Shown here: positions 55,361 to 58,254 of the stretch, piece by piece
How positions within the stretch are numbered: position 1 is the stretch's first letter
Layout of the letters: every line of letters begins with the position of its first letter
NCBI GenBank assembly: GCA_903231505.1
Contig: CAFBRK010000158.1
Span: 1 to 64,000 of the forward strand
Source of the DNA: Olavius algarvensis associated proteobacterium Delta 3
GTDB lineage: Bacteria > Desulfobacterota > Desulfobacteria > Desulfobacterales > CAFBRK01
Direction of reading: 5' to 3'
DNA length: 64,000 nt
The notes under the pieces: model-generated
Databases searched by the model: none
The model's input: the letters and a program-made list of their open reading frames with translations, nothing else
What the model was told of the DNA's origin: nothing
Made by a program: the position numbers and the translations under genes

Positions 55361-57247
55361 ATGGACGACACGCAATTTAGACGTCGCTTGAGCGCCGTTC
55401 TAAGTGCGGATGCCCAGGGATACAGCCGTCTGATGGGTGCCGACGATGTTTCGACCGTTCATAGAATTAAAACCTGTCGCGACATCATGACCCGTTTGAT
55501 CGAGAACAAAAACGGCCGTGTTGTCGATGCACCCGGCGATAACCTTCTTGCAGAATTTGGCAGTGTCGTCGATGCCGTGGATTGCGCTCTGAAAGTCCAG
55601 ATCGAGCTGGCAGAATACAATAACGGCATTCGGGAAGAAGAACAGATGCATTTTCGCATCGGCGTGAATCTGGGGGATCTGGTCATCGACGAAGGTCGCA
55701 TCTATGGCGACGGGGTCAACATCGCTGCCCGACTCGAGAAACTGGCCGAACCCGGTGGGGTCTGCATTTCCGGCGCTGCCTATGAGCAAGTTCAAGGAAA
55801 ATTGGCTCTGGGCTGTGAATACCTCGGTGAACAAGCGGTGAAAAACATTCAACGGCCTGTTCCGGCGTACCGCGTGTGGCTGGAGGAAGGTGCTGCCGCT
55901 TGTGGCATTCCAGTCGGTCGGAAGGCCAAACGTGGAATGCCGTGGAAATACCTCGTACCGATTGCAGCCGCAACAATAATCGTTGCCGCAGCAAGCGCAC
56001 TGTACATGGGGCAGCCGACCACAAAATCAACCCCGAAACCTCCCCCCGCCGAGATCGCGCCGGGCGAAGGTGAAAAGGCGTCCATTGCCGTCCTTCCCTT
56101 CGTCAATCTCGGTGAGAACAAAACCCAGGAATACCTCTGTGACGGCATAACCCGTGATCTGATCACCGATCTCTCAAAATTCCACGATTTGGCCGTGACA
56201 GCCTCATATATGTCCTTTCGATACAAAGGTAAAATAGAGAATCTTGAGAGTATCGCCCACGAGCTGGGCGCCCGGTATGTTCTGGAGGGCAGCATGCAAA
56301 CATCCGGTGACAGGATCCGGGTCAATGCGCAACTGATTGAGGTTCCTTCCGGAAAAACCCTCTGGGCCGATCGCTACGATCGAAAAACCCGGGAAATGTT
56401 TGATGTTCAGGAAGACATCATCCAGACCATTGTGCGGGTGTTATCCTTGAAAATCAGCGAGGCTGAACTGGACCGTATCCGGCAGAAAGACACGGCCAGC
56501 TACGAAGCCTACGACTATGTGCAGCAGGGGTGGTATGAGGCCAGAAAGAGAAAGCGGGACAACAACCGTAAAGCTGCCCAATTGTATCAAAAAGCCGTCG
56601 CCATCGATCCCAACTACGCGGACGCGTATGTCGGTCTGGCGGAAGTGCGTATGGCGGCAGCCAACTACGGATGGACGGAGTTTCCCGGAAAATCTATCCA
56701 ACAGGCGCTGGGGTTTGCCAAGAAAGCTGTAGATATCGACCCGAATAATGCCCAGGCAAGAAGCCAGCTTGGCTATATCTATATGCGATCCGGAGAGTAT
56801 GACCTGGCCGTAAAAGAATTAGAGACTGCAATCGATTTAAATCCGAACAATTGGAGAAGCTACAGAGACATGGGAGCGGTATTGCTCTATTCGGGCCGAC
56901 CGGAAGAGGCCCTGGGATGGTATAAAGAGGCGATGAAATATGACACGGCTATCACAGCAGGCCTGTTTATGAATATGGGCATTATGCACTTGTTAACCGG
57001 ACAATATGAATCAGCGGTGCATTGGTTAGAGGAGGGAACCGTTCGCTGGCCAGACTTTTTAGGAACACATATCGTTCTTGCTGCGGCATATGCCGAAATG
57101 AACCGCCTCCATGATGCACGGAGTGAAGTCGATGAGATCAAACGCATTTCACCGCTCTTTCAAACCGAATTTTACGGGTCGGCATATCGCAACCCCGAAC
57201 ATCGTGCCCGGATTGTCAAAGGGCTGCGTAAAGCAGGCCTCCGGTGA
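55361..57247 (+). CDS. class III adenylate/guanylate cyclase with TolB-like and TPR domains
   Basis: 628 residues. Cyclase domain (about 8-175): LSADAQGYSRLMG carries the first metal Asp, GDNLLAEFGS the second, and GVNIAARLEKLAEPGGVCIS the transition-state Asn and Arg. A single membrane helix (about 194-212) follows. Outside it lie a FlgO/TolB-N-like domain (SIAVLPFVNLGENKTQEYLCDGI, about 236-390) and then TPR repeats (about 405-600), including AVAIDPNYADAYVGLAEV and ETAIDLNPNNWRSYRDMGAVLL. Such receptors are common in rhizobia and Desulfobacterota. A cyclic-nucleotide-binding protein is encoded 5.7 kb downstream. GGAGGT precedes the ATG. Confidence 0.92.
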   Translation: MDDTQFRRRLSAVLSADAQGYSRLMGADDVSTVHRIKTCRDIMTRLIENKNGRVVDAPGDNLLAEFGSVVDAVDCALKVQIELAEYNNGIREEEQMHFRIGVNLGDLVIDEGRIYGDGVNIAARLEKLAEPGGVCISGAAYEQVQGKLALGCEYLGEQAVKNIQRPVPAYRVWLEEGAAACGIPVGRKAKRGMPWKYLVPIAAATIIVAAASALYMGQPTTKSTPKPPPAEIAPGEGEKASIAVLPFVNLGENKTQEYLCDGITRDLITDLSKFHDLAVTASYMSFRYKGKIENLESIAHELGARYVLEGSMQTSGDRIRVNAQLIEVPSGKTLWADRYDRKTREMFDVQEDIIQTIVRVLSLKISEAELDRIRQKDTASYEAYDYVQQGWYEARKRKRDNNRKAAQLYQKAVAIDPNYADAYVGLAEVRMAAANYGWTEFPGKSIQQALGFAKKAVDIDPNNAQARSQLGYIYMRSGEYDLAVKELETAIDLNPNNWRSYRDMGAVLLYSGRPEEALGWYKEAMKYDTAITAGLFMNMGIMHLLTGQYESAVHWLEEGTVRWPDFLGTHIVLAAAYAEMNRLHDARSEVDEIKRISPLFQTEFYGSAYRNPEHRARIVKGLRKAGLR

Positions 57248-57324
57248 AATCACCATTCACAAGCCTGCAATTTGTGGAAGGTCAACAGGAACATTCTCAA
57301 GACGGGCGGATCGTACATCCTGGG

Positions 57325-57786
57325 TTATTCTGCGATCCGGTCGATGACAGCATCCACACTGGCGGTAGTGCTTTCAGCGTCAGGCGTCACCCATCCCAGA
57401 TAAAGTTTTCCATTGACGATTACCCAGTCTTCGGGATTCTCGGCGGCAAACTTGCCGGTCGAAAGACTGACCGCTCAGAATCCGCCATGGCTGGGGGCAT
57501 ACGCTTCCGGGTCGGCGGCAAAACGGTCCCGGTTTTCGCCGCTGGCGAAATGCCACTCCGCTTCGTTCCAATGGTGGGCATATTTTTCCGTTCCCTTGAC
57601 CGCTTTGCCCTCGGTGAAGTAGGCAACCGGGTCATAGCCTTTGATGGCAATGCCCAGAATTTCATCCCCATCCCCATCAGAGGCAACCGCAGGCAGCCCG
57701 TAACTGAAGGCTATCACGAGTCCGAGCACCAACCCCAGCGAAAGTGGAAGAGCGTGAAAAGATATATTCGATGACGTTATATTCAT
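57325..57786 (-). CDS. exported YHS-domain protein with in-frame TGA (candidate Sec)
   Basis: From the ATG at 57786 (AGGAGG 7 bases upstream) a signal peptide (about residues 1-36, ending AVA-S) leads to a YHS domain: IKGYDPVAYFTEGKAVKGTEKYA, HFASGENRDRFAADPEAYAP, SHGGF. The next codon is TGA at 57475-57477. The same frame then continues AVSLSTGKFAAENPEDWVIV and NGKLYLGW to a TAA at 57325. Family members read GGYCA-AVS, so TGA replaces the conserved Cys exactly, and the downstream homology stays in frame. A hairpin CGGCA-AGUU-UGCCG starts 17 bases after the UGA. As a selenoprotein it has 153 residues; read as a stop it would be truncated within the domain. Confidence 0.75.
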
Positions 57787-58254
57787 GGCCAACCTCCTGA
57801 TCGTCACGTTGTTTTTCTAAAGAAACAGTGATGGAGGTTGCTTTGTCTCGGAGTGCAGCAGGGCAGATGTTTCCAGGTCTATGGATACAAAGCACCAGAA
57901 AATAGGGTAACCATGCAGGAAGTCGATGCAAGCTCACGGCCGGAAATTTGATCAGAGGCTTTTGACTTGCGTTGCCAACCTAGATCCGTTATCCGTTCTT
58001 CTGAAGTTCCCCCCTTTGGAACGGGTTCATGGCATCACCCACGAACGTGTATTTTCCTGCTGCTGCCTCCAAAGCGGCGTTCTACCATACAATCTGTCTC
58101 GACCATCTTTTCTACTGATTTACCGAAAACCAAGGATCTCGTGGCAAGGCAAACGGATGGGTACCATCGGCTCCGCTCACTGGACAAAAATGGGAGAACC
58201 GGGGAAGCCTCAGCCCGCCTCTCCGTAGCCGATGAGAATTCAAAGGAGGTTGCG
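57787..58254. other. 468-bp gap, no gene supported
   Basis: It contains the leader of the YHS gene on the left and of the lysozyme-like gene on the right (AAAGGAGG at 58242-58249). A long open frame on the plus strand is the upstream extension of the lysozyme-like gene and lacks protein-like composition. Confidence 0.5.

Follow-up and report, generated by a model that had tools for sequence, protein, structure and literature searches.

Selenoproteins with a YHS domain have already been listed (PMC9312934, PMC2398784, PMC13188914), and the first report of one, from the Delta 1 symbiont of Olavius algarvensis, is credited to Zhang and Gladyshev 2007 (cited as ref 60 in PMC13188914). The locus described here lies in the window, i.e., the stretch of 64,000 nucleotides of contig CAFBRK010000158.1 from the Olavius algarvensis associated proteobacterium Delta 3 that was analysed as a whole. 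With the NCBIfam family NF041384 (YHS_seleno_dom) it shares a score above the cut-off across an in-frame TGA, a putative Sec in a GxU motif and a host belonging to the Thermodesulfobacteriota, whereas it differs by a shorter, divergent C-terminus and by its pairing with a gene for a predicted adenylate cyclase. A second described system is the adenylyl cyclase of Mycobacterium phlei, where a YHS domain is fused to the enzyme, copper activates it, and one Asp and three Cys residues have been implicated in metal binding (PMC4626032). The window likewise associates a YHS domain with a class III adenylyl cyclase, but while the M. phlei protein is fused, cytosolic and rich in Cys, the YHS protein found here is encoded separately, is predicted to be exported, lacks those Cys residues and would carry its Sec after the domain. 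Finally, the TolB-like/TPR half of the cyclase is weakly similar to CadC (far below the cut-off), and a topology similar to that of CadC-like one-membrane-pass sensors is predicted, with a cyclase domain in place of their DNA-binding domain. The window gene is a well-supported addition, together with a Sec paralogue in the same genome, to an already known selenoprotein family, and the pairing with the cyclase is a possibly new functional lead. The features of the locus are as follows.

55361..57247, plus strand: predicted class III adenylate/guanylate cyclase gene, the convergent neighbour, with cyclase domain, transmembrane helix, TolB/FlgO-like domain and TPRs
57233..57268, minus strand: hairpin at the convergent gene ends (-18.3 kcal/mol, z -2.9), overlapping the end of the cyclase gene
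57325..57786, minus strand: coding sequence of the predicted exported YHS selenoprotein (153 aa, Sec104, stop TAA), with the NF041384 match spanning the TGA
57438..57464, minus strand: bSECIS-like hairpin (about -11 kcal/mol), with the core CGGCA-AGUU-UGCCG at 57444-57457
57475..57477, minus strand: putative UGA selenocysteine codon in an invariant Cys/Sec column (motif GGFU, family motif GxU)
57493..57627, minus strand: YHS domain PF04945 (residues 54-98, just ahead of Sec; 30.0 bits, slightly below the cut-off of 30.3)
57679..57786, minus strand: probable N-terminal signal peptide or anchor (hydrophobic peak 2.07 at residue 17)
57793..57798, minus strand: perfect Shine-Dalgarno sequence AGGAGG, 6 nt upstream of the ATG, read directly

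A frame on the minus strand starts with the ATG at 57786, reaches a TGA at 57477-57475, continues with about 50 codons of YHS-family sequence and closes with a TAA ending at 57325; the original prediction had given this frame, its TGA, the flanking stretches SHGGF before and AVSLSTGKF and NGKLYLGW after it, and the final TAA, all of which were re-read exactly so. Over residues 46-138 the read-through protein scores 126 bits (E 7.4e-37) for NF041384 ("YHS domain-containing (seleno)protein"), the curated cut-off being 70 bits. Its N-terminal segment has LPAVAS at residues 31-36 and no Lys or Arg ahead of the hydrophobic stretch, and its C-terminus is shortened and divergent, the usual NW(P) segment being missing. 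Sec104 would be the only selenium or sulphur nucleophile of the protein, located shortly C-terminal to the YHS domain. A single-sequence scan of the sequence collection returned no match, the profile version did find homologues, and a search of solved structures by sequence with the YHS protein gave no significant relative. The confidence of an AlphaFold model is limited to the YHS core (mean pLDDT at least 90 in blocks 51-100, near 54 around Sec104), and a fold search with this model returned weak matches only, including one to the YHS region in toluene monooxygenase.

The position of the TGA is what carries the reading as selenocysteine. It had been claimed that the family has Cys at exactly this place, and indeed all 15 TGA homologues have their TGA in a single column in which the approximately 80 others have Cys (L056 and L083 being counted once, as the Desulfobacterales locus L083 is apparently identical to L056 of the class search). 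In the class, a search of 291 genomes with the NF041384 cut-off as threshold yielded 27 loci, 12 with TGA and 15 with Cys in one and the same alignment column; of 54 named loci spread over many phyla, Cys occupies this column in 51 and TGA in three (from Desulfobacterales, Desulfobulbaceae and Nitrospiraceae), and nothing else occurs there. Outside the class but in the same phylum, a further locus (L174) has TGA in the Cys column, the rest there having Cys, so that TGA homologues are found in Desulfobacterota and Nitrospirota. The GGFU104 column is invariantly Cys/Sec in 41 aligned homologues and in every class locus. Close homologues, the paralogue in the same genome included, show TGA or Cys at this exact site instead of random stops, with no TGA elsewhere in their conserved part, and the nonsense codons of the broken copies L051 and L167 are TAG/TAA away from the Cys column. 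Moreover, substitutions after the TGA of the window gene favour third codon positions, for instance in the comparison with its Sec paralogue (8, 5 and 12 at the three positions). The Cys/Sec column thus constitutes very strong evidence for a predicted selenocysteine, and a sequencing error at the TGA is unlikely because relatives have TGA at the same site.

The genome of the window (5.74 Mb, 94% complete) also holds the machinery that the original prediction had proposed to look for, namely selA (616 bits), selB (370 bits), a tRNA-Sec with the anticodon TCA, and selD (L026, C34:69509-70429; 369 bits), which has its own in-frame TGA at a CGU motif and is itself a predicted selenoprotein. Within the class, the presence of sel genes does not discriminate the Sec from the Cys form, as selA is present in practically every YHS-bearing genome there. 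Four YHS members occur in this genome, two with TGA (the window gene and C194:19040-19375) and two with Cys. In a tree of 78 YHS cores (116 columns), in which many forks are unresolved, the window gene has its Sec paralogue as sister (99/92), the pair belonging to a group with seven Sec members, and is the fast-evolving copy of its clade (branch 0.63 versus 0.29 for its sister). Overall, the Sec members fall into three groups, with roughly four changes between Sec and Cys, one of which, at L033, is likely to be a reversion to Cys.

The hairpin CGGCA-AGUU-UGCCG that had been pointed out downstream of the UGA is present at 57457-57444 and agrees with the consensus model of bSECIS elements (PMC13188914, Fig 2) in its 4-nt loop, its 5-bp upper stem and the G at loop position 2, and with 22 bases between UGA and loop and about -11 kcal/mol it exceeds none of the limits stated there. 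Within the limits of the same model, a hairpin whose first two loop bases include a G is present 18-26 nt past the UGA in all 12 TGA loci of the class, at -7.9 kcal/mol or better. However, a G-loop hairpin at an allowed distance, with -7.5 kcal/mol or better, is also present in eight of the 15 Cys homologues, 10% of codon shuffles equal the hairpin of the window, the fold of 58 nt has a z of -1.0, and consensus folding gave little covariation. Hairpin energies are shifted as expected between TGA and Cys homologues (Mann-Whitney p 0.006, kinship ignored), yet the distributions overlap, and energy was dropped as a discriminator. A search with RF00031 was uninformative, as this is the eukaryotic SECIS family and had no match in any control genome. 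The hairpin is consistent with a Sec reading and is weak evidence alone, not being individually beyond chance.

Taken together, the Cys/Sec column, the sel genes and the TGA homologues support the proposal of a YHS-family selenoprotein, and the window gene very probably encodes an exported NF041384 protein in which the UGA at 57477-57475 is read as Sec by SelB. That the TGA is instead an ordinary stop or nonsense mutation, leaving a pseudogene or a YHS protein of 103 residues, would be compatible with the long branch and altered C-terminus of the window copy and with the existence of broken relatives (the frameshifted L059, and L167 and L051 with internal TAG/TAA), but is very improbable given that TGA is confined to the Cys column in 15 loci, that the genome decodes Sec, and that homology and coding-type substitutions persist past the TGA. 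According to the favoured selenoprotein reading, SelB and Sec-tRNA(UCA), aided by the hairpin just downstream, would decode the UGA to give the protein of 153 residues.

The convergent neighbour is predicted to be a class III cyclase, as its cyclase domain scores 39.7 bits for PF00211 (Guanylate_cyc; cut-off 21.9) and the catalytic-type motifs SADxxGYS, GDN and NIAAR are all present; the VKT-MGD of rhizobial cyclases is VDxPGD in the window cyclase and its Desulfobacterota relatives. Since basic residues precede its single transmembrane helix (about residues 198-216), the sequence suggests a cytoplasmic cyclase half and a periplasmic TolB-like/TPR half. The hairpin between the two gene ends is a possible two-way terminator.

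With respect to gene neighbourhoods, 100 YHS loci were compared, 95 of which extend 1 kb or more downstream. At 30 of 96 loci (29 of 95 plus L110 at a contig end) the YHS gene is directly adjoined by a homologous cyclase in convergent orientation; the cyclases adjoining YHS genes are convergent in 30 cases, divergent in two and on the same strand in none. As two loci were entered twice (L074 and L083 being one gene) and related rhizobia account for many of the 30, the number of independent pairings is lower, perhaps about ten lineages. All seven members of the Sec group that includes the window gene have the convergent cyclase, and so do Cys forms from Desulfobacterales, rhizobia, Rhodospirillales, Seohaeicola, Chromatiales, Muproteobacteria and Nitrospinae, the pairing spanning Desulfobacterota, Nitrospinota and alpha- and gammaproteobacteria. 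Two annotated Rhizobiaceae plasmids have the same gene order, with an ankyrin-repeat gene ahead of the YHS gene. Where YHS genes lack the cyclase, their 119 flanking ORFs include no other family with more than three occurrences.

The tree built from 39 cyclases has one group with 99/99 support, made up of 13 linked, three near and one unlinked sequence, and another with 100/100 support, made up of nine linked members from alphaproteobacteria or Chromatiales and lacking local controls; 13 of 14 unlinked paralogues, drawn mainly from five Desulfobacterota genomes, fall outside the linked groups. The YHS-linked cyclase is the best match of the window cyclase in G057, G097, G214 and G229, the best of 57 matches in G679 and the sole match in G678; in G675 (Rhizobium), G676 and G677 it is not consistently the best, and orthology is therefore less clear. 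Within its own genome the window cyclase is closest to the unlinked L197 and then to the linked copy on C194. L197 belongs to the clade of YHS-linked cyclases, yet has no adjoining YHS gene; it is one of three tandem cyclase-TolB-TPR genes (L215, L213, L197) at C214:17314-23083. In addition, nine alphaproteobacterial or Chromatiales YHS-linked cyclases (L084, L100, L104, L106, L109, L122, L128, L132, L189) are extended at the C-terminus by a further domain, some 120 residues long and with two Cys conserved in it, which is missing from those of Desulfobacterota.

With regard to the chemistry of the YHS protein, a metal sensor or chaperone for copper or a similar metal, with Sec as a ligand and signalling to the adjacent cyclase, is suggested by the copper-activated fusion of M. 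phlei (PMC4626032), by the YHS homology and by an invariant Asp52. However, C104, which like D52 is among the invariant residues in 41 homologues, is their only conserved Cys and lies outside the Pfam YHS stretch, so that the three cysteines of the metal site described for YHS/TRASH domains (one Asp and three Cys, PMC4626032) are missing; since the YHS stretch contains no Cys, the copper site of the fused protein is not present as such. As the window protein is moreover probably exported whereas the domain in M. phlei is cytosolic and fused, metal sensing appears rather unlikely. A lone Cys that is replaced by Sec in anaerobes fits better with thiol/selenol redox chemistry, and a role in the periplasm based on one thiol or selenol at Sec104, rather than on metal binding through the classical YHS site, has about an even chance of being right, because a single invariant, exchangeable Cys/Sec is retained and the classical YHS cysteines are absent.

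As to the cyclase, its proximity might be a by-product of shared transfer or of chance, the YHS protein being an independent periplasmic reductase or antioxidant. In line with this, the convergent genes are not co-transcribed, the cyclase is missing from two thirds of the YHS loci, including those of the second Sec clade, a few unlinked YHS genes (and also L051) are flanked by MsrA/MsrB genes, and no partner Cys is conserved in the periplasmic half of the linked cyclases of Desulfobacterota. In contrast, adjacency far exceeds what the density of window-type cyclases would give (eight matches in the own genome of 5.7 Mb), is repeated across several phyla and in two cyclase subclades, and involves cyclases that group apart from nearly all unlinked paralogues. 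Independence of the two genes is therefore quite possible, if somewhat short of probable.

A functional connection is tentatively suggested by the conserved tail-to-tail pairing together with the topology: with its signal peptide or anchor-like segment the YHS protein could meet the cyclase outside the inner membrane, where the TolB-like/TPR half would face it, and the extracytoplasmic redox state, or a ligand, might set the cyclic-nucleotide output of the cytoplasmic half. With moderate-to-low confidence, we rank such a redox input into the cyclase above copper sensing and above an unrelated reductase. Its extension to a two-gene selenium/thiol-to-cyclic-nucleotide module across phyla, in which the exported protein is the periplasmic redox input and Sec replaces Cys in anaerobic Desulfobacterota, is conceivable though on balance unlikely; if true, it would connect extracytoplasmic redox chemistry of selenium or thiols with signalling by second messengers. 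Within the literature searched, which does not mention the pairing (the 2007 Olavius paper and a 2025 paper on selenoprotein neighbourhoods, where it possibly appears, lying outside the searched texts), the conserved convergent cyclase is the first testable functional lead found for part of this selenoprotein family, and since the Cys version occurs in Rhizobium and Seohaeicola strains it can be tested in tractable organisms.

Several YHS loci show further peculiarities. The Cys-form paralogue L059 of the own genome (C133:78574-78852) has a frameshift near its C-terminus (after GKL) and is probably either a pseudogene or an assembly error, and the TGA-form gene outside the class (L174/L185, G329:C151) is split by a frameshift right after the Sec codon. 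At L051 (G281:C437), the YHS gene is interrupted by a TAG and lies in one reading frame with a downstream MsrB gene of the twin-arginine type. On Vibrio plasmids (L187, L190), a Cys-form YHS gene is part of a long series of small genes for GNAT, VOC and nucleotidyltransferase proteins, all on one strand, which resembles an array of integron cassettes.
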